NCBI RefSeq assembly: GCF_003096555.1
Contig: NZ_QEKM01000001.1
Coordinates: 2,976,001 to 3,040,000 of the forward strand
Direction of reading: 5' to 3'
Source of the DNA: Simplicispira sp. 125
Lineage (GTDB): Bacteria; Pseudomonadota; Gammaproteobacteria; Burkholderiales; Burkholderiaceae_C
DNA: 64,000 nt
The translations under genes were made by a program, and so were the position numbers. Of this stretch, positions 50,416 through 58,867 are shown piece after piece; position 1 is the first letter of the stretch; every line of letters begins with the position of its first letter. The notes below the pieces were generated by a model. It did no database searches. It had not been told where the DNA came from and worked only from the letters and a program-made list of their open reading frames with translations.

Positions 50416-50718
50416 ATGTCCAGCATCTCCTCCATTGCATCTTCCGGCCTGCAGGCCGCGCAACTGCGGCTGGACGCCTCGGCGCACAACGTGGCCAACA
50501 TGAACACGCCCGCGTTTCGTCGCCAGTCGGTGGCCCTGCAGGCCCAGCCCGAGCAAGGTGGTGTACGCGCCAGCGTGCAGCGCGAATCCCAGGAAGGCGC
50601 GGCACTGGAGCAGGAAGCGGTGGAACAGATGTCGGCCACCTACGCCTTCAAGGCCAACCTGCAAACCCTCCAAACCGAAGACCGCATGCTGGGCGCGCTG
50701 CTCAACACGCAGGCATAA
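50416..50718 (+). CDS. Miniature flagellar rod/hook-like protein
   Basis: A 100-residue protein joining the two ends of flagellar rod proteins. Residues 1-40 carry the rod N-terminal signature SGLQAAQLRLDASAHNVANM with TPAFRRQ; residues 70-100 carry the C-terminal helix motif VEQMSATYAFKANLQTLQTE that packs with it in FlgB/FlgC/FlgG. The middle domain is missing. No other flagellar gene is nearby. It may be a minimal axial-protein-like filament subunit or a degenerate rod gene; the intact ends argue for function. Its 3' end overlaps the convergent DUF2061 gene by 17 bases. Confidence 0.75.
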   Translation: MSSISSIASSGLQAAQLRLDASAHNVANMNTPAFRRQSVALQAQPEQGGVRASVQRESQEGAALEQEAVEQMSATYAFKANLQTLQTEDRMLGALLNTQA

Positions 50719-50977
50719 GCGGGGCGCCCTGCGGTGCGGCGGCGTTGGCCGCAGCGGCACGGGCCTTGCGCGCGGAGCGCTCCCAGGCTTTTTCATGGAA
50801 GAAGAAGGCGAAAGCCTGCACCGTAGGCTCCAGCAGGCTGAGCGTGAGCGATGCGATCAGGTTGCCGGTGACCGCATAGGCCACCAAGGCGGCGACGGTG
50901 ATATGGATCAGGTAGTAGCTGCCTGTCTTGAGCAGCATGGTCTTGTTCTGGCGGGCGGCGCGGCGAATGCGGGACAT
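50702..50977 (-). CDS. DUF2061 membrane protein
   Basis: A 91-residue protein matching the DUF2061 pattern: LLKTGSYYLIHITVAALVAYAVTGN, then a second helix, then EPTVQAFAFFFHEKAWER. It has two membrane helices with basic N- and C-terminal tails. Function unknown. Its start lies about 45 bases from a near-perfect Fur box, so it is probably iron-regulated. It overlaps the end of the convergent rod-like gene. Confidence 0.82.
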   Translation of the reverse strand: MSRIRRAARQNKTMLLKTGSYYLIHITVAALVAYAVTGNLIASLTLSLLEPTVQAFAFFFHEKAWERSARKARAAAANAAAPQGAPLMPAC

Positions 50978-51019
50978 GGCGTTCTCCTGGAGAGCAGCCC
51001 TGCACGATAGCGGGCTTTA

Positions 51020-51040
51020 ACAAATGATAATCATTATCAA
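51020..51040. promoter_or_regulatory. Fur box
   Basis: The palindrome ATGATAATCATTATC (51024-51038) matches 15 consecutive positions of the 19-base Fur consensus and is flanked by A/T. It lies between DUF2061 (start 54 bases away) and the SPFH gene (start about 170 bases away), so one or both are likely repressed by iron-loaded Fur. Confidence 0.8.
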
Positions 51041-51203
51041 TTGATTCCACCATTGAATCTGACTACCGCCGCCATGGTCAAAACCTGGGCACACCGGAAC
51101 TTGTTCACAAAAACGCCCGCCGCCCCGCTGCCCTGCGCCCACCACCGTTGCTATGATGCTCGGCCACCTTCTTTCATTCTTTCCACAGCAACCGGGAACA
51201 CAC

Positions 51204-52259
51204 ATGGCCCTCATGGACTTCATCAAGAAACAGTTCATCGACATCCTCGAGTGGACCGAGGACGGCGACGGCACGCTGGCCTGGCGCTACCCGATGGCGG
51301 GCATGGAAATCCAGAACGGCGGCACGCTGGTGGTGCGCGAGTCGCAGATGGCCGTCTTCGTCAACGAAGGCCAGGTGGCCGACGTGTTCGGCCCCGGCAC
51401 CTACAAGCTGACCACGCAGACGCTGCCGGTGCTCACCTACCTGAAGAACTGGGACAAGCTGTTCCAGTCGCCCTTCAAGAGCGACGTGTACTTCTTCAGC
51501 ACGCGCCAGCAGATCGACCAGAAGTGGGGCACGCCCCAGCCCATCACCATCCGCGACAAGGACTTCGGCGCGGTGCGCCTGCGGGCCTTCGGCAACTACG
51601 CCTACCGCATCGCCGACCCCAAGCTGTTCCACACCGAGATCTCGGGCACGCGCGACAGCTACCCCGTGGCCGACCTCGAAGGCCAGCTGCGCGGCATGGT
51701 GCTGCAGAACATCAGCAACGCGATTGCGGGCAGCGGCCTGCCGTTTCTGGACCTGGCCGCCAACCAGGTGATGTTTGCCGAGGCGCTGGCCAAGGAGCTG
51801 GCCCCCCACTTTGCCAAGATCGGCCTGACGGTTGAGAGCCTGACGGTACAGAACGTCTCCCTGCCCGAAGAACTGCAGAAAATTCTGGACCAGAAAATCG
51901 GCATGGGCATGGTCGGCAACGACATGGGCAAGTTCATGCAGTACCAGACGGCGCAGGCCATTCCTAAATTTGCCGAAGGCGGCGGTGGTAGCGGCATTGC
52001 CGGTGACGCCATGGGCCTGGGCGCCGGTGTGGCGCTGGGCCAGGTGCTGGCGCAAAACCTGCAGCAAGGCCTGCAAGGCGGTGGCGGCGCGGCGGCACAG
52101 GCTGCGGGTGCGGCCACTGCGGCGGCAGCACCGGCAGGCGTGCGGCCCGACGAAGTCATGGCCACGCTGGAAAAGCTGGGCGAGCTCAAGTCCAAGGGCA
52201 TCCTCACGCAGGAGGAGTTCGACGCCAAGAAGGCTGAACTGCTCAAGAAATTGGCGTAA
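51204..52259 (+). CDS. SPFH/band-7 protein with C-terminal SHOCT motif
   Basis: A 351-residue protein of the virion-core-like band-7 family (YdjI/Band_7_1). It begins DFIKKQFIDILEW, then has WRYPMAGMEIQNGGTLVVRESQMAVFVNEG, a band-7 domain to about residue 250 ending in LPEELQKILDQKIGMGMV, a Gly/Ala-rich linker, and a SHOCT tail LGELKSKGILTQEEFDAKKAELL. These proteins form ring-like membrane-associated scaffolds. Start 51204 has GGGAA upstream; an upstream ATG at 51153 has none. First gene of a plus-strand unit with DUF4178 and DUF350 proteins, downstream of the Fur box. Confidence 0.88.
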   Translation: MALMDFIKKQFIDILEWTEDGDGTLAWRYPMAGMEIQNGGTLVVRESQMAVFVNEGQVADVFGPGTYKLTTQTLPVLTYLKNWDKLFQSPFKSDVYFFSTRQQIDQKWGTPQPITIRDKDFGAVRLRAFGNYAYRIADPKLFHTEISGTRDSYPVADLEGQLRGMVLQNISNAIAGSGLPFLDLAANQVMFAEALAKELAPHFAKIGLTVESLTVQNVSLPEELQKILDQKIGMGMVGNDMGKFMQYQTAQAIPKFAEGGGGSGIAGDAMGLGAGVALGQVLAQNLQQGLQGGGGAAAQAAGAATAAAAPAGVRPDEVMATLEKLGELKSKGILTQEEFDAKKAELLKKLA

Positions 52260-52264
52260 GTCTT

Positions 52265-52325
52265 TAGCTATTAAAATAATAGCTAACAGTGCTTGATGGA
52301 TAAGCGTTAGAGGCCAAAAAAGCTT
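52265..52325. repeat. Dispersed AT-containing repeat (near-consensus copy)
   Basis: Contains TAGCTATTAAAATAATAGCT (an inverted repeat by itself) then AACAGTGCTTGATGGATAAG and CGTTAGAGGCC. It lies in the 104 bases between the SPFH and DUF4178 genes. Confidence 0.8.
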
Positions 52326-52363
52326 CAAATACCAGACCCATCAACGCTGTCGGCCCGCCCCTG

Positions 52364-53854
52364 ATGGCCACCGACCCCACACAGCGTTACTACCGTGCAC
52401 CCTGCCCCGGCTGTGGTGCGCCGGTCGAGTTCAAAAGTGCGCAATCCACGCACGCCGTCTGCGGCTTCTGCCAAAGCACCGTGGTGCGCAGCGGCGACGT
52501 GCTGCAGCGCCTGGGCAAGATGGCCGAGCTGTTCGACGACCACAGCCCGCTGCAGCTCATGGCCAGCGGGCGCATCACGCTGGACGGCAAAGAGCAGCCG
52601 TTCACGCTGATCGGCCGCCTGCAGTACAAAAACGCGGCCGGTGTCTGGACCGAATGGGTGGCCTTCCTGCAGGACGGCAGCATGGCCAGCCTGGGCGAAG
52701 ACAACGGCGCCTACGTCTTCACCCGCCCCATGGACCCGGGGCGCGAGCTGCCCGAGGCCAGCCGCTTTCGCGTGGGCAGCACCACCGCCATCAACGGCAA
52801 GCCCTACAGCGTGGCCTTCAGCGGCCAGGCCAGCCTGATCTCGGCCCAGGGCGAACTGCCCAAGCTGCCACCGCTGGGCCAGCCGTTCGATATGGTCGAG
52901 CTGCGCAGCGAAGACGGCGAAGTGCTCAGCATCGACTACGGCCACCAGCCCCCCAACGTCGAACGCGGCAAGTCCGTGCTGCTCGAAGACCTGCAGCTGC
53001 AAGGCCTCAAGGACGAATCGGCCAAAGACGAAAAAGGCCGCCAGTTCAACTGCCCGCACTGCGGTGCGCCCGTGCAGGTGCAACTGGCCAGCACCAAAAG
53101 CATCACCTGCGGGTCGTGCGCCAGCATCATTGACCTCGGCAGCGGCGTGGGCGGCGAGTTGCGCTCGGCCGAGCAGGACGAACCCGTGCGCCCCATCATC
53201 CCGCTGGGCAGCAAAGGCCAGCTCCAGGGTGTGCAATGGCAGGTGGTGGGCTTTCAGCACCGCATGGGGCAAGAACCCGGCGACGACGAACAGTTTGGCT
53301 GGAGCGAGTACCTGCTCTACAACCAGAAGCGCGGCTTTGCCTTTCTGGTCGATGCCGAAGACGGCTGGAGCATGGTGCGCCCCACCACGGGCGCCCCGCA
53401 AGTGGGGTCGACGGGCCGCACCGCCACGTACATGGGCACCACCTACCAGCTCAAGTACAGCTACGAGGCCGAAACCACCTATGTGCTGGGCGAGTTCTAC
53501 TGGCAGGTCGAGCGCGGGCAAAAAACCTCCAACCGCGACTACGCCAGCGCCAAGGGCCTGCTGTCGATGGAGCAGAGCAAGAACGAGCTCACCTGGTCGG
53601 CCGGCGACAAGCTGGCCAGCGACACGGTGGTCAAGGCCTTCAAGCTTGACGACAAGAAAGACCTGCTCCAGCGCGACGACCCCGGCCCCTTCGTGGCGGC
53701 CAAGGGCCTGGGCTGCGGCACACTCATCCTCATCGCCGTGGTGCTCATCATCCTGCTGGTGCTGCTGTCGAACTGCTCGGGCTCGCCCGGGGGCGGCTAC
53801 CGCAGTTCCAGCGGTTCGTTCGGTGGTTTTTCCACCGGCGGTGGGCATAAATAA
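52364..53854 (+). CDS. Zinc-ribbon protein with DUF4178 domain and C-terminal membrane anchor
   Basis: A 496-residue protein. Zinc ribbon 1 has CPGCG (Cys14, Cys17) and CGFC (Cys33, Cys36); zinc ribbon 2 is CPHCG with CGSC (about 227-248). A first DUF4178-like unit (about 60-200) and a second (about 285-440), with GEFYWQVERGQKTSNRDY, follow each ribbon, so the protein looks duplicated. A membrane helix (about 450-468) and a Gly/Ser-rich tail ending in STGGGHK close it. DUF4178 proteins are commonly encoded beside DUF350 and aminopropyltransferase genes. Biochemical role unknown. Confidence 0.82.
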   Translation: MATDPTQRYYRAPCPGCGAPVEFKSAQSTHAVCGFCQSTVVRSGDVLQRLGKMAELFDDHSPLQLMASGRITLDGKEQPFTLIGRLQYKNAAGVWTEWVAFLQDGSMASLGEDNGAYVFTRPMDPGRELPEASRFRVGSTTAINGKPYSVAFSGQASLISAQGELPKLPPLGQPFDMVELRSEDGEVLSIDYGHQPPNVERGKSVLLEDLQLQGLKDESAKDEKGRQFNCPHCGAPVQVQLASTKSITCGSCASIIDLGSGVGGELRSAEQDEPVRPIIPLGSKGQLQGVQWQVVGFQHRMGQEPGDDEQFGWSEYLLYNQKRGFAFLVDAEDGWSMVRPTTGAPQVGSTGRTATYMGTTYQLKYSYEAETTYVLGEFYWQVERGQKTSNRDYASAKGLLSMEQSKNELTWSAGDKLASDTVVKAFKLDDKKDLLQRDDPGPFVAAKGLGCGTLILIAVVLIILLVLLSNCSGSPGGGYRSSSGSFGGFSTGGGHK

Positions 53855-53874
53855 ACTTCAAGGAGAAACGCATC

Positions 53875-54096
53875 ATGATGGGAATTGAATGGCTCCGGCC
53901 CGCGGCATTCCTCGGCTCCATCCTCTACGCCATCATTGGCGTTTTCATCTTCTGGCTGTGCTTTGTCATCGTCGACAAGATCACCCCTTACGACCTGTGG
54001 CGTGAAATCGTCGAAAAACAGAACCAGGCCCTGGGCCTGGTCGTGGCCGCGATGTGCCTTGGGATCAGCATCATCGTGGCGGCCGCCATCCACTAA
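53875..54096 (+). CDS. DUF350 membrane protein
   Basis: A 73-residue protein with two membrane helices (about 10-32 and 50-70) separated by VDKITPYDLWREIVEKQNQA, the conserved loop of DUF350 (YjfL-like). It carries a single DUF350 unit where many relatives have two or more. AAGGAG precedes the start. Its place after DUF4178 and near an aminopropyltransferase gene matches the known co-occurrence of these families. An ion-conducting or membrane-stress role has been proposed for such proteins; nothing in the sequence proves it. Confidence 0.85.
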   Translation: MMGIEWLRPAAFLGSILYAIIGVFIFWLCFVIVDKITPYDLWREIVEKQNQALGLVVAAMCLGISIIVAAAIH

Positions 54097-54099
54097 AAC

Positions 54100-54150
54100 C
54101 ATAGCTACTGGCGCCCGGTGGACGGGCGCTGGCAGCGTTTTTTATGCCTA
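54100..54150. terminator. Repeat-derived hairpin between convergent genes
   Basis: Stem GCGCCCG/CGGGCGC around 54111-54130, flanked by TAGCTACTG and TGGCAGCG of the dispersed repeat, then six T. It lies between the DUF350 gene and the convergent ddh gene and could stop transcription from the left. Confidence 0.6.
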
Positions 54151-54168
54151 TTTAAGGCCGGTACCTGC

Positions 54169-55155
54169 CTACAGCAGCTCCTCGCGCAGCTGCGCCGGCG
54201 ACTTGATCGACAGCAGCCCCGGTGCCACGTCAAAGGCCGTCTTGGCGCCGCACTGGCCCTGCGCATGGAGGCGGTGCGCCGCGCGCGCGTAGGCCACCAG
54301 CACGCTGGCGGTGAACTCGGGATTGCTGTCGAGCTGCAGCGCGTACTCGATGACCTGGCGCTGCGCATCGCTCGTGTTGCCGCTGCGGATCACGAAGCCG
54401 CCATGCGGCATGCGGTTGTGCTCGCACTGCAGCGTGGCCTCATCGATGAAGTGCACGGTGGTGTCGTAATCGGCAAAGTAGTCGGGCATGGTGACGATGG
54501 CCTGGCGCACCGCATCGGCGCTGGCGCCGTCCTCCAGCACCACATGGCATTCGCGCGTGTGCTTCTGGCGCGTGCTGAGCGCGGGGCGCGCACCGCTGCG
54601 CACCTGGGCCACCGCCTCGGGCGAGGGAATGGTGTACTGCACGCCCGCCTTCACGCCCGGCACGCGGCGGATGGCGTCGGAATGCCCCTGGCTCAACCCC
54701 TTGCCCCAGAAGGTGTAGGTGGCGCCATCGGGCAGCAGCGCCTCGCCGTACAGGCGGTTGATGGAGAACATGCCCGGGTCCCAGCCGATGGAGATCAGCG
54801 CCGTCTTGCCGTTGGCGCGCGCGCTCGCGTCCACCGCCTCGAAATACGCCGGAATGCGCGCATGGGTGTCAAAGCTGTCCACGGTGTTGAACAGCGCCGC
54901 CAGCTCGGGGCCCTGGCGCGGCAGGTCGTCCTTGGAGCCGCCGCACAGGATCAGCACGTCGATGGTGTCCTTGAATTCGGCCAGCCGCCCGTAGGCATGC
55001 ACCGGCGTGCGGGCAAACAGCGGCTGCAGGTCCTGCGGCGCGCGCCGCGTAAAGATGCCGGCCAGCACCATGTCGGGGTTCTTTGCCACGGCGGCCTCCA
55101 CGCCGCGCCCCAGGTTGCCGTAACCGGCGATACCAATGCGAATCTGATTGCCCAT
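54169..55155 (-). CDS. ddh: meso-Diaminopimelate D-dehydrogenase
   Basis: A 328-residue NADP-dependent oxidoreductase of the Ddh type, which makes meso-diaminopimelate from tetrahydrodipicolinate in one step. It has a Rossmann start IRIGIAGYGNLGRGVEAA, then LCGGSKDDLP, FDTHARIPAYFEAVD, ISIGWDPGMFSINR and FWGKGLSQGHSDAIRR (about 149-164), all characteristic. Start 55155 with GGACAG upstream is chosen over a much longer open frame. The gene is oriented against the surrounding SPFH-aminopropyltransferase genes and splits that set in two. Confidence 0.92.
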   Translation of the reverse strand: MGNQIRIGIAGYGNLGRGVEAAVAKNPDMVLAGIFTRRAPQDLQPLFARTPVHAYGRLAEFKDTIDVLILCGGSKDDLPRQGPELAALFNTVDSFDTHARIPAYFEAVDASARANGKTALISIGWDPGMFSINRLYGEALLPDGATYTFWGKGLSQGHSDAIRRVPGVKAGVQYTIPSPEAVAQVRSGARPALSTRQKHTRECHVVLEDGASADAVRQAIVTMPDYFADYDTTVHFIDEATLQCEHNRMPHGGFVIRSGNTSDAQRQVIEYALQLDSNPEFTASVLVAYARAAHRLHAQGQCGAKTAFDVAPGLLSIKSPAQLREELL

Positions 55156-55263
55156 GAATTGCTGTCCAAGGTGGTAAAAAAGGATGACCGAGTCTACCCA
55201 CCGTCTGCACCACAATAGCGCGATCGCCCGGCACCCGCGCCGCAGGCCACAGAACGCCCCACC

Positions 55264-55527
55264 ATGCCCACCCTTGACTGGCTCAACCGCTCCACCGCCT
55301 TCACCACCGCCGCCCAGGTGCCCTTCCGCCTGTTCGAACCCGTCAGCACCCACGGCAACGCGCGGAGCACCGCTGACAACCTGGACCACAGCCTGTGGCT
55401 GTCGATGATGCTGCCGCGCCTGCAACGGCTGCGCAAACTGACGCCAAGCCAGCATCGAGATGCATATGGCCGACTTGCGCGACGCGGCAAAAATCTGGCC
55501 CAGCAACTCGATGAAGTACTGGCATGA
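55264..55527 (+). CDS. Small protein of unknown function, possible chimeric remnant
   Basis: An 87-residue open frame. The first 30 residues (MPTLDWLNR, then QVPFRLFEPVSTHG) recall the N-terminus of site-specific DNA methyltransferases of type III-like systems, from memory and without a database check. The second half (SLWLSMMLPRLQRLRKLTPS, then RLARRGKNLAQQLDEVL) is helical and basic and does not continue a methyltransferase. Its stop overlaps the start of the aminopropyltransferase gene by four bases (ATGA), which argues that it is translated. No ribosome site is obvious. Either a fusion of fragments or a real small protein. Confidence 0.45.
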   Translation: MPTLDWLNRSTAFTTAAQVPFRLFEPVSTHGNARSTADNLDHSLWLSMMLPRLQRLRKLTPSQHRDAYGRLARRGKNLAQQLDEVLA

Positions 55528-57164
55528 GTAACGCTCCCGGCACGGCCGTACCTGCCGCCCCCCACGGCCCCCGCCCCATCGACATCGCCCTGCTCGCCAG
55601 CGTCTTCGTGGTGGCCGCCTGCGGGCTGCTGTACGAGCTGGCGGCCGGTGCGCTGGCGTCGTACCTGCTGGGCGACTCGGTGCTGCAGTTTTCCACCATC
55701 ATCGGCACCTATTTGTTCGCCATGGGCGTGGGTTCGTGGCTCTCGCGCTATTTCGAGCGGCAGCTGCCGGCGCATTTTTTGCGTATCGAACTGCTGGTGG
55801 CGCTGATCGGCGGCACGCTGCCTGCGGTGCTGTTCCTGGCCAATGCCTATGCGCCGGGGGCGTTCCGCTTTTTGCTCTATGGCATGGTGCTGGTGGTGGG
55901 CACGCTCGTCGGCCTGGAGATTCCGCTGGTGATGCGTATCTTAAAGCGCAATGTGGCGCTCAAGGACCTGGTCTCGCAGGTCCTCACCTTCGACTACCTG
56001 GGCGCGCTGGCGGTGTCGCTGGCGTTCCCGCTGCTGCTGGTGCCGCACCTGGGGCTGATCCGCACGGGGCTGTTGTTTGGGCTGCTCAACGCGCTGGTGG
56101 CCGTATGGGCGTTGTGGCTTTTTCGCTGGGAGCTGCGGCGCTGGGGCGCGCATGTGGCGGCCTGCGCCATGGTGATTGGGCTGCTGCTGGCGGCGCTGGC
56201 GGGCGCTGAGCACATCACCACTTTTGCCGAAGACAAGTTTTACCAGGACCGCATCGTCTTCACCGCAGCTTCGCCCTACCAGCGCATCGTGGTGACGGAT
56301 GGCAAGCTGGGCCACCGCCTGTTCCTCAACGGCAACCTGCAGTTTGCCGAGCGCGACGAGTACCGCTACCACGAGGCGCTGGTGCACCCGGCCATGGCGG
56401 CCCACGGTGCACCGAAGCGCGTGGCGGTGCTGGGCGGGGGCGACGGTATGGCGGTGCGCGAGATTCTCAAATACCCCTCGGTGGAATCGGTCACGCTGGT
56501 GGAGCTGGACCCGGCCATGACGCGGCTGTTTACCGACAACGCCACGCTGGCGCGGCTGAACGGCCACGCGCTGCGCAGCCCCAAGGTGCAGGTCGTCAAC
56601 ACCGACGCCTTCCAGTGGCTGCAGGATGGGCAATCGAGGGCCGCCAGGCCGCCCCAAGGCGCGAGCGCCCCCCAGGGGGGCAGCGAACCACGCGCAGCGG
56701 GAAGCGTGGGGGCTCACGATACCTTTGATGTGATCGTGGTGGACTTCCCCGACCCCACCAACTTCGCCATTGGCAAGCTCTACACCAACAGTTTCTACGC
56801 CTTGCTCGACCGGCGCCTGGCCGCCAGCGGCTATGCGGTGGTGCAGACTACGTCGCCCCTGGTGGCGCGCCAGAGTTTCTGGACCGTGGTGCAGACCATC
56901 GAGTCGGTCGGCCTGCAGACGGCGCCCTACCACGCCCATGTGCCCAGCTTTGGCGAATGGGGCTTTGTGCTGGCCAGCCACCGGCCCTGGCGCCTGCCCG
57001 AGGCGCTGCCCGGCGGGCTGCAGTTTTTGAGCGCCAGCACGCTGCCGCTGCTGTTTGACTTTCCCCTGGACATGGCGCGGGTGCCGGCCGAGGTGAACCG
57101 CCTGTCCAACCAGCTGCTGGTGCACACTTATGAGCGCGAGTGGGGCAAGGTCATGGCCCACTGA
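55524..57164 (+). CDS. Membrane-bound polyamine aminopropyltransferase (spermidine synthase-like)
   Basis: A 546-residue protein: about seven membrane helices (residues 20-230) followed by a spermidine-synthase-type domain. The catalytic part has YQRIVVTDGKLGHRLFLNG, DEYRYHEALVHPAM, the SAM-motif GGGDGMAVREILKY (about 305-318) and VIVVDFPDPTNFAIGKLY. A 29-residue Arg/Pro/Gln/Gly-rich insert (about 371-399) encoded by a GC-rich dispersed repeat interrupts the domain just before VIVVDFPDP. Enzymes of this class move aminopropyl groups from decarboxylated SAM to amine acceptors. Its membrane anchoring and neighbours suggest an acceptor at the membrane. No SAM decarboxylase gene is in the window. 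Confidence 0.88.
   Translation: MSNAPGTAVPAAPHGPRPIDIALLASVFVVAACGLLYELAAGALASYLLGDSVLQFSTIIGTYLFAMGVGSWLSRYFERQLPAHFLRIELLVALIGGTLPAVLFLANAYAPGAFRFLLYGMVLVVGTLVGLEIPLVMRILKRNVALKDLVSQVLTFDYLGALAVSLAFPLLLVPHLGLIRTGLLFGLLNALVAVWALWLFRWELRRWGAHVAACAMVIGLLLAALAGAEHITTFAEDKFYQDRIVFTAASPYQRIVVTDGKLGHRLFLNGNLQFAERDEYRYHEALVHPAMAAHGAPKRVAVLGGGDGMAVREILKYPSVESVTLVELDPAMTRLFTDNATLARLNGHALRSPKVQVVNTDAFQWLQDGQSRAARPPQGASAPQGGSEPRAAGSVGAHDTFDVIVVDFPDPTNFAIGKLYTNSFYALLDRRLAASGYAVVQTTSPLVARQSFWTVVQTIESVGLQTAPYHAHVPSFGEWGFVLASHRPWRLPEALPGGLQFLSASTLPLLFDFPLDMARVPAEVNRLSNQLLVHTYEREWGKVMAH
56634..56720. repeat. GC-rich dispersed repeat inside the aminopropyltransferase gene
   Basis: In-frame segment including CAAGGCGCGAGCGCCCCCCA and GGGGGGCAGCG, containing the palindrome CCCCCC-A-GGGGGG, then AGCGGGAAGCGTGGGGGC. 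I recognise this pattern as a common intergenic repeat in Comamonadaceae. It encodes the low-complexity insert of the protein. Confidence 0.75.
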
Positions 57165-57187
57165 ACATCGGGTCAAAGGCATACACC

Positions 57188-58867
57188 ATGCAACGCCGCC
57201 AGTTTCTTGCCACCGCTGCCGCCACGGCCCTGGCCGGTTGCCACGATGCACCGCGCACGCTGCAGGGCGGCTTTGCCGGTATCGACCTGGCGCGCGGCCA
57301 TGCGCTGCGCGACCTGCTGCAGTCGGGCAAGCTGCCCGCGCCCAGCGTGGTGCGGCGCGCGCAGGTCATCATCGCCGGCGGTGGCGTGGCCGGGCTGGCG
57401 GCGGCGCGGTCGCTGCGGCTGGCGGGCATCGACGATTTTGTGCTGCTCGAGCTCGAAGACCAACCCGGTGGCAACAGCCGCGGGGGCAGCGTGAGCAGCA
57501 TCGCCTGCCCGCTGGGCGCGCACTACCTGCCGGTGCCGGGGGACGATTCCCGCGAAGTGCAAGACCTGCTCGAAGAACTGGGCCTGCGCCGGCGCATCGC
57601 CGGGCGTTGGCAGTACGACGAGCGCCACCTGTGCCACAGCCCGCAGGAGCGTCTTTTCCGCGACGGCGAATGGCAAGAAGGTTTGCTGCCCATGCAAGGC
57701 GTGGGCGCCAGCACACTGGCCCAGTACCGGCAGTTTTCTGCGCTGGTGCAAGCGCTGGGCAAAGCAGCGCGCTTTACCATGCCCGTGCTCAAGTCTTTAG
57801 AGGTAAAACGGCCTCTGTCGCCCACCCATCAAGCGCTGGATGCTCTTGTTTTTGATGATTGGCTGGCACAACAAGGGCTGGATGATGCCCACCTGCGCTG
57901 GTACCTGGACTACTGCTGCCGCGACGACTACGGTGCGGGCACGGCGCGCGTGTCGGCCTGGGCGGGTATCCACTACTTCGCCAGCCGCCATGGTTTTTCT
58001 GCGCCAGGCGACGACGCCCCGCCCGAGCAAGACGGCGTGCTCACCTGGCCCGAGGGCAACGGCTGGCTGACCCAGCGCCTGGCGGAGCCCCTGCGCGCTG
58101 GCGGCCAGCTGCGCACGGGCTGCAGCGTGCTGCGCATCAGCGAAGGGCGCCACGGCGTGGAGGTGGATGCCCTGCACCACGCGACGGGCACCGTGGAGCG
58201 CTGGCAAGCCCCGCGCGCCATCGTGGCGCTACCGATATTTGTGGCGGCGCGGGTGGTGCAGCAGGCCCCGGCCTTTTTGCGCGAAGCTGCACGGCGGCTG
58301 CACTGGGCGCCCTGGCTGGTGGCCAACATCCACATCGACGCGCCTTTGCTCGACCACCCCGGCGCCGCGCCCGCCTGGGACAACGTGCTCTACCAGGATG
58401 CCAACCCCGGCGGCCTGGGTTATGTGGACGCCGGTCACCAGCGCCTGGACCCGCGCTCGGCCATCACCGCCCCCACGGTGCTGAGCTACTACCAGGCGCT
58501 GGGCGATGTACCCCAAGGCCGCGAGCAGTTGGCAACCCAGCCGTGGACGCACTGGGCACAGGCTGCGCTGGCCACCCTGGGGGTGCCCCACCCCGACCTG
58601 GCCCGGCGTGCCACGCGCGTGGAGGTCACGCGCTACGGGCACGCCATGTCCATTCCCACACCGGGTACGCTGGGGTTTTTAAGCAAAATCGGCCTCCAGC
58701 GCCCGCCAGTCAAGCGCAAGCAGCTATCGAATGGTGAGCAAACCCGCTGGCTGCCCACACCCACCACCGCACGGCTGGCGTTTGCGCACGCCGACTGGTC
58801 GGGCTATTCGGTGTTTGAGGAAGCCTTTACGCGCGGTCACGGGGCGGGGCTGGCGGTGTTGGCCTGA
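57188..58867 (+). CDS. Exported FAD-dependent oxidoreductase (amine oxidase-like)
   Basis: A 559-residue flavoprotein. The N-terminus MQRRQFLATAAATALAGC combines an RR-type (Tat-like) signal with a lipobox, so it is probably an exported lipoprotein. The FAD motif is VIIAGGGVAGLAAARSLRLAG (about 76-96), with ELEDQPGGNSRGG after it; the C-terminal FAD contact is AHADWSGYSVFEEAFTRG. The fold fits the flavin amine oxidase/NAD(P)-binding group. It lies 23 bases after the aminopropyltransferase gene, suggesting that it oxidises the polyamine-type product. Two stretches (codons for about residues 203-225 and 498-515) are encoded by copies of the AT-containing repeat, in frame. Confidence 0.83.
   Translation: MQRRQFLATAAATALAGCHDAPRTLQGGFAGIDLARGHALRDLLQSGKLPAPSVVRRAQVIIAGGGVAGLAAARSLRLAGIDDFVLLELEDQPGGNSRGGSVSSIACPLGAHYLPVPGDDSREVQDLLEELGLRRRIAGRWQYDERHLCHSPQERLFRDGEWQEGLLPMQGVGASTLAQYRQFSALVQALGKAARFTMPVLKSLEVKRPLSPTHQALDALVFDDWLAQQGLDDAHLRWYLDYCCRDDYGAGTARVSAWAGIHYFASRHGFSAPGDDAPPEQDGVLTWPEGNGWLTQRLAEPLRAGGQLRTGCSVLRISEGRHGVEVDALHHATGTVERWQAPRAIVALPIFVAARVVQQAPAFLREAARRLHWAPWLVANIHIDAPLLDHPGAAPAWDNVLYQDANPGGLGYVDAGHQRLDPRSAITAPTVLSYYQALGDVPQGREQLATQPWTHWAQAALATLGVPHPDLARRATRVEVTRYGHAMSIPTPGTLGFLSKIGLQRPPVKRKQLSNGEQTRWLPTPTTARLAFAHADWSGYSVFEEAFTRGHGAGLAVLA
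57795..57865. repeat. Dispersed AT-containing repeat inside the FAD oxidoreductase gene (1)
   Basis: Contains GGCCTCTGTCGCCCACCCAT and CAAGCGCTGGATGCTCTTG followed by TTTTTGAT. Translated in frame as part of the oxidoreductase. Confidence 0.65.
58680..58735. repeat. Dispersed AT-containing repeat inside the FAD oxidoreductase gene (2)
   Basis: Contains AAAATCGGCCTCCAGCGCCC then GCCAGTCAAGCGCAAGCAGC and TATCG. Translated in frame as a Lys/Arg/Pro-rich loop of the protein. Confidence 0.7.

Follow-up and report, generated by a model that had tools for sequence, protein, structure and literature searches.

Five plus-strand genes in a 64,000-nucleotide stretch of the Simplicispira sp. 125 genome (contig NZ_QEKM01000001.1, positions 2,976,001 to 3,040,000; the whole stretch is called the window) make up one conserved operon. 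They encode an SPFH protein ending in a SHOCT domain, a DUF4178 protein, a DUF350 protein, the membrane aminopropyltransferase SpeEm and an amine oxidase with a twin-arginine translocation (Tat) type signal. We tentatively read the operon as a system that modifies envelope amines, a plausible account that we stop short of calling probable: an amine of the inner membrane would be aminopropylated by SpeEm, whose catalytic domain is most likely periplasmic, the product would be oxidised outside, and the other genes would supply a scaffold. Domains were called in the window proteins, ten of which were scanned, as profile matches above curated cut-offs, and the feature positions and domain identities that an earlier note had given from the letters alone proved correct.

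51204..52259, plus strand: SPFH (band 7) protein with C-terminal SHOCT (Band_7_1 257.6 bits, SHOCT 35.3 bits)
52364..53854, plus strand: duplicated zinc-ribbon and DUF4178 protein (DUF4178 113.9 bits in two stretches)
53875..54096, plus strand: single-unit DUF350 membrane protein (73 aa; 55.5 bits over half of the profile; two hydrophobic stretches)
55524..57164, plus strand: SpeEm, membrane polyamine aminopropyltransferase (NCBIfam NF002956 (PRK03612) 670.9 bits, curated cut-off 472)
57188..58867, plus strand: amine-oxidase-like FAD protein that has a twin-arginine signal and a lipobox-like Cys, QRRQFLATAAATALAGC (PF01593 66 bits)

The five genes are conserved and inherited together

The genome searches used samples of 150 family, 274 class and 398 phylum genomes, and SpeEm was present in 88 of the 150 from the family. 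Of the 87 SpeEm genomes other than the window's, 76 each contributed one locus (20 kb at most) to a survey of gene order; the remaining 11 were left out because of fragmented contigs. The loci were annotated with the window proteins, and nearly all were picked around DUF350 matches; they are related by descent, so the counts are not independent events. All five genes were found in 67/76 loci and were colinear on one strand in each of the 67. Gaps below 500 bp separated SPFH from DUF4178 in 74/74 loci, DUF4178 from DUF350 in 74/74, DUF350 from SpeEm in 44/73 and SpeEm from the oxidase in 61/71. The nine incomplete loci were without DUF350 (2), the oxidase (4), SPFH (2) or both SpeEm and the oxidase (1); in the five genomes with an oxidase-less locus, the oxidase was found elsewhere in the genome.

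Presence was also scored independently of linkage across the 150 family genomes. The oxidase occurred in 87/88 SpeEm genomes versus 0/62 others, and DUF350 in 86/88 versus 0/62. Two candidates had been removed from these sets: the DUF350 match of genome G006, which scored below the cut-off (87 to 86), and G129 as a SpeEm genome (E 1e-23; 89 to 88), whose sole Spermine_synth match at E≤1e-24 adjoins its S-adenosylmethionine (AdoMet) decarboxylase, AdoMetDC. The earlier note had treated the five genes as one system and had named a lack of conserved co-occurrence in relatives as an outcome that would refute it; no such lack appeared in the neighbourhood survey, and the complete, colinear loci together with the near all-or-none presence in the family bear the claim out. 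Eighty named loci, retained out of 505 matches, place the genes in Acidovorax, Paracidovorax, Giesbergeria, Simplicispira, Diaphorobacter, Comamonas, Variovorax, Ramlibacter and others of the group; the closest lies in a Giesbergeria assembly, with an oxidase 95% identical.

Several results argue against a fixed five-gene set everywhere. The class sample of 274 genomes held SpeEm in 7 and the oxidase in 3, two of each being within the window's family. SPFH and DUF4178 lie on the strand opposite to SpeEm in locus L033, and DUF350 is full-length rather than single-unit in 3/86 matches. Among five class-level loci, one carries the oxidase and DUF4178 and another SPFH, DUF4178 and DUF350. A distant phylum set of 19 loci (30 minus four without an exact GGG[DE]G motif and seven from the window's own family) had, within 1.5-kb flanks, the oxidase in 5, SPFH in 4, DUF4178 in 2 and DUF350 in 2. 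The gene set is thus looser outside the family than inside.

Other neighbours were seen at some loci. Outside the family the enzyme has another context: a GNAT acetyltransferase and a protein of ~200 residues without a Pfam match adjoin the SpeEm relatives of L226, L227 and L229, and a Sel1-repeat protein is also found at L226 and L229. Related large signalling proteins stand between SpeEm and the oxidase in L038, L044 and L099 (MHYT, PAS, histidine kinase and HD domains in L044, the one scanned), and SpeEm-oxidase gaps of ~5 kb occur in many named Acidovorax loci too.

SpeEm retains aminopropyltransferase active-site residues

SpeEm consists of a seven-helix membrane domain (residues ~20-229) fused to an aminopropyltransferase domain (~235-546). 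Its NF002956 score lies well above the cut-off, whereas with the canonical spermidine synthase profile (SpeE, TIGR00417) it reaches only 137.9 bits and misses the cut-off of 249.55. The aminopropyltransferase residues GGGDG, Asp329, Asp407, Asp410 and Tyr282, at positions aligned with solved enzymes, are kept in 141-142 of 142 sequences, a set from which rows shorter than 490 residues were omitted. Thermospermine synthase (6bq2) is the top solved relative by sequence, and a polyamine aminopropyltransferase (1uir), which we take to be the Thermus enzyme, is also among the best. The kept residues suggest that SpeEm transfers an aminopropyl group.

The catalytic domain of SpeEm is predicted to lie outside the inner membrane

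Seven hydrophobic segments are present in SpeEm residues 1-250, with no sign of an eighth, and Glu38, Glu89, Glu132, Arg138, Asp157 and Arg180 of the membrane domain are identical in 142/142 sequences. The loops between the helices differ in charge: loops 2-3, 4-5 and 6-7 together contain a mean of 10.2 Lys+Arg, versus 2.0 in loops 1-2, 3-4 and 5-6. With loop boundaries taken from window coordinates, the bias has the same sign in 161/161 SpeEm sequences, including 19/19 that belong to other families than the window's and whose best segment is 28-56% identical. Loops rich in Lys and Arg lie on the inner side of the membrane (the positive-inside rule). By this rule the charge bias points to an N-terminus inside and a seventh helix that carries the catalytic domain outside, and we therefore predict that the domain is on the oxidase's side of the inner membrane. 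The second helix is weak, and the outcome depends on loop 6-7 and helix 7. A catalytic domain outside the membrane was not met with in the literature searched, in which subscription papers were mostly outside reach.

The cysteine content of the catalytic domain is a weak argument for the same location. The domain is cysteine-free in 140/142 sequences and in 16/19 distant ones, and among the soluble SpeE relatives listed (120 of 4,909 matches, all close kin) 120/120 have at least two cysteines. Three observations weigh against it: 3/5 class-level SpeEm relatives do have a cysteine in the catalytic domain, the SPFH proteins (51204-52259 and those of the survey) are equally cysteine-free in 71/74 though without an export signal, and 11.5% of 418 unrelated open reading frames (ORFs) lack cysteine in their last 275 residues.

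A predicted exported amine oxidase and proposed scaffold proteins accompany SpeEm

The oxidase exceeds the PF01593 cut-off of 19.8 bits and has the FAD-binding Rossmann motif GGGVAGL. Close to its C-terminus a W-x-G-Y motif, presumably equivalent to the WSGY of MAO, is invariant in 29 rows. An RR motif is followed by a lipobox-like Cys, and the strict RR-lipobox pattern recurs in 52/69 survey and 71/76 named oxidases with the FAD motif (3 survey and 3 named oxidases without it were omitted). The protein is thus predicted to be a Tat-exported lipoprotein; it would act on an amine, on the same face as the SpeEm catalytic domain. Its fold matches include SpdH, at 14% identity.

The SPFH protein has no clear transmembrane helix (top 19-residue hydropathy 1.38), and the stretch between band 7 and SHOCT peaks at 1.38 and 0.99. 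In the DUF4178 protein all eight cysteines of the two zinc ribbons are invariant in a 31-row alignment; its C-terminal part has one hydrophobic helix and then a Gly/Ser-rich tail ending GGGHK.

The donor enzyme is inherited with SpeEm

AdoMetDC forms decarboxylated AdoMet, and both the enzyme and this aminopropyl donor are cytosolic. Among the 150 family genomes, AdoMetDC was detected in 83/88 with SpeEm versus 9/62 without (p 4e-25), and its start lies within 12 kb of the SpeEm start in 36/83 genomes and within 40 kb in 43/83. Soluble SpeE (E≤1e-24) is present in 11/88 SpeEm genomes, by coordinates beside AdoMetDC in 11/11; in the other 72 AdoMetDC-bearing SpeEm genomes, SpeEm is the sole SpeE-type enzyme detected at that threshold. 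The window genome has a single AdoMetDC match (C1:2278199), directly 5' of a soluble spermidine synthase at 2278873; this speDE pair is 753 kb from SpeEm.

In a tree of 46 AdoMetDCs, 40 of 41 copies from cluster loci and an unlinked copy from G121 group together in a 41-member clade (support 99/100). The L033 copy is the only cluster-locus copy outside this clade, and the copy of the window genome is also outside. Together with the genome positions, the tree suggests that the window lineage seems to have exchanged a dedicated donor enzyme for a spermidine-type (speDE) one. Such an exchange would account for the decarboxylase that the earlier note had recorded as missing from the window, which is correct locally but not for the genome.

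Functional AdoMetDCs beside fusions of MFS and spermidine synthase (SpdSyn) domains and DUF350, in bacteria without spermidine, were reportedly described by Li and colleagues in 2019. A membrane SpdSyn-like fusion, DUF350 and AdoMetDC are common to those clusters and ours, the absence of spermidine being a feature of theirs; topology, the SPFH-DUF4178 set and a donor switch to speDE are not known to be described there. To our knowledge, the AdoMetDCs of such bacteria have had no known use so far. Here, within one family, a nearly one-to-one link is seen between AdoMetDC and both the membrane aminopropyltransferase and the exported amine oxidase.

Related operons have been described

Excerpts of Ravi et al. 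2024 (PMC11237479) describe operons of a 7TM-spermidine synthase fusion, DUF350, DUF4178 and PspA-CesT/Tir, as well as a band-7/SHOCT variant with AdoMetDC and a polyamine oxidase, and propose polyamine monitoring or aminopropylation of other substrates. Like ours, the phage-shock-linked operons as given there combine the 7TM-SpeE fusion with DUF350, DUF4178 and a lipoprotein, but here SPFH-SHOCT stands in place of PspA-CesT/Tir and a Tat-type amine oxidase takes the part of the lipoprotein. Neither PspA nor CesT/Tir was found among the ten window proteins scanned, and no genome-wide PspA search was made. The band-7/SHOCT variant shares with ours band 7 and SHOCT, an amine oxidase and, in the 36 genomes mentioned above, a nearby AdoMetDC. 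Two transmembrane helices are placed between band 7 and SHOCT in the excerpts, whereas none is clear here, and AdoMetDC is placed in the operon, whereas that of the window genome is distant. Relative to these published operons, as far as the excerpts go, what is new here is the prediction from charge bias that the catalytic domain is outside.

A further precedent is the Pseudomonas aeruginosa spermidine dehydrogenase SpdH, which has a Tat signal and is predicted to be periplasmic (PMC11107197, in part). Our oxidase shares with it the type, an FAD amine-oxidising enzyme with a Tat signal, but the two are distant in sequence, and SpdH is not linked to a membrane aminopropyltransferase in the excerpts of that paper.

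Proposed mechanism and alternatives

In the reading that we tentatively prefer, decarboxylated AdoMet would be made by a cytosolic AdoMetDC, here that of the distant speDE pair. SpeEm would then move the aminopropyl group onto an amine that is embedded in the inner membrane or attached to it, most likely at the periplasmic face; its seven-helix domain, which has invariant acidic residues, would let in the positively charged donor or acceptor. On that face the product or its excess would be oxidised by the Tat-exported flavoenzyme, while SPFH, DUF4178 and DUF350 would form a membrane scaffold or channel that organises or gates the membrane. The earlier note had likewise coupled membrane-linked aminopropyl transfer to an exported oxidase, and we keep this coupling as the best reading. 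A catalytic domain on the far side of the membrane might also explain why enzymes of this type have not been shown to make spermidine and why SpeEm fails as a spermidine synthase.

A more specific proposal, which we consider possible but somewhat doubtful, is that SpeEm works vectorially: cytosolic decarboxylated AdoMet would pass through the enzyme's own acidic membrane domain, and the aminopropyl group would be placed on an envelope amine at the outer face (for example, the head group of phosphatidylethanolamine or an ornithine lipid), the product being trimmable by the oxidase. If true, this would be the first case known to us of an AdoMet-derived aminopropylation that takes place outside the cytosol.

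Alternatively, and rather unlikely in our judgement, the catalytic domain would be cytosolic and would aminopropylate a membrane-associated amine from within, export of the product preceding its oxidation. Established chemistry places the donor and AdoMetDC in the cytosol, the DUF4178 zinc ribbons and SPFH, which lacks a signal, would presumably be partners on the cytosolic side, and the idea is close both to the model of the earlier note and to the aminopropylation proposed in the Ravi et al. excerpts. It requires, however, that the positive-inside rule be broken in 161/161 sequences or that SpeEm have an additional membrane segment, of which residues 1-250 give no sign.

Less probable still, SpeEm would supply the envelope with a free polyamine, long or branched, which the oxidase would recycle or use as a source of nitrogen, much as proposed for the Tat-signal SpdH of Pseudomonas (PMC11107197, in part), which offers a precedent. 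The best solved relatives of SpeEm and the presence of SpdH among the oxidase fold matches favour this, but near one-to-one co-inheritance with membrane scaffold genes would be odd for a catabolic pair. Moreover, the SpdSyn-like domain in the clusters of Li and colleagues is said to be no substitute for SpdSyn, spermidine being absent. That SpeEm is a sensor and not an enzyme, binding decarboxylated AdoMet or polyamines and signalling to SPFH/DUF4178 in a phage-shock-like membrane-stress response, accords with the link to PspA systems and the polyamine-level monitoring suggested in the excerpts of Ravi et al. 2024 (PMC11237479), but is improbable given catalytic residues kept in the 142 sequences examined and an amine oxidase alongside SpeEm in 87/88 genomes.

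The Fur box most likely belongs to the DUF2061 gene

Upstream of the operon lie two further features.

50702..50977, minus strand: divergent DUF2061 small membrane protein (PF09834 63.9 bits), a neighbour probably outside the system
51025..51039, no strand: Fur-type perfect 7-1-7 palindrome, most likely an operator for DUF2061 and not for the operon

The 19-mer Fur consensus at ≤3 mismatches has one site in the window versus a mean of 0.00 in shuffles. The box that the earlier note placed upstream of SPFH is therefore real, but it is closer to the divergent DUF2061 gene (47 bp) than to SPFH (~165 bp). DUF2061 is present in 16/75 SPFH-bearing loci (window included), and a box (≤4 mismatches) lies upstream of SPFH in 15/16 of these versus 1/59 loci without DUF2061; ~2.5% of 1,500 random 360-bp pieces have one by chance. 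In the 29 DUF2061-SPFH intergenic regions examined, the best site (≤5 mismatches) is 26-67 bp away from the DUF2061 gene, and its distance to SPFH is 95-217 bp. Since the box tracks DUF2061 across loci, it is most likely the DUF2061 gene's, and the label iron-responsive is not supported for the operon. In the window lineage, the box may be a divergent operator shared by DUF2061 and the operon.

Among the best 30 of 55 DUF2061 places, 26 are away from SPFH, and 11/26 have an upstream box at ≤4 mismatches (gene starts approximate). Fur-type boxes upstream of DUF2061 genes even apart from the operon, noted in L200, L205 and L222, suggest an iron-regulated small membrane protein.

The DUF350-SpeEm junction carries insertions

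Two features separate DUF350 from SpeEm in the window.

54169..55155, minus strand: ddh, meso-diaminopimelate dehydrogenase (NCBIfam TIGR01921 437 bits)
55262..55521, plus strand: deletion scar, where what remains of the first part of a type III mod gene adjoins the last res codons

Neither the 76 further survey loci nor the 80 named ones, some of which stop short of the junction, gave a ddh match of at least 45 bits. Junction contents were determined from a single scanned member per group. In L036, L061, L082, L091 and L095 the junction holds a DNA methylase of the mod type together with an AlbA_2/helicase-like protein, with an additional long res-type ORF in L061, L082 and L091; L090 has a short piece of such an ORF. 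Mod and res genes are present in the relatives L116, L118, L119 and L123, res in L115, and a type I restriction gene in L098. The window retains the beginning of mod in two pieces at ~55262-55440 (protein 38-43% identical, DNA 81-90%), and at 55484-55530 the last res bases run into SpeEm, 91% identical to L116. By these matches to the genes of relatives, ddh appears as an unrelated insertion beside the scar of a lost type III restriction island. It does split the set, as the earlier note had it, at a junction where insertions are found in relatives too. The recurrence of restriction-modification genes or remnants at this junction makes it a possible hotspot for defence-gene insertion inside the operon.

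A short ORF at 50416-50718 begins MSSISSIASSGLQAAQLRLDASAHNVANMNT, which resembles the N-terminus of flagellar rod/hook proteins.

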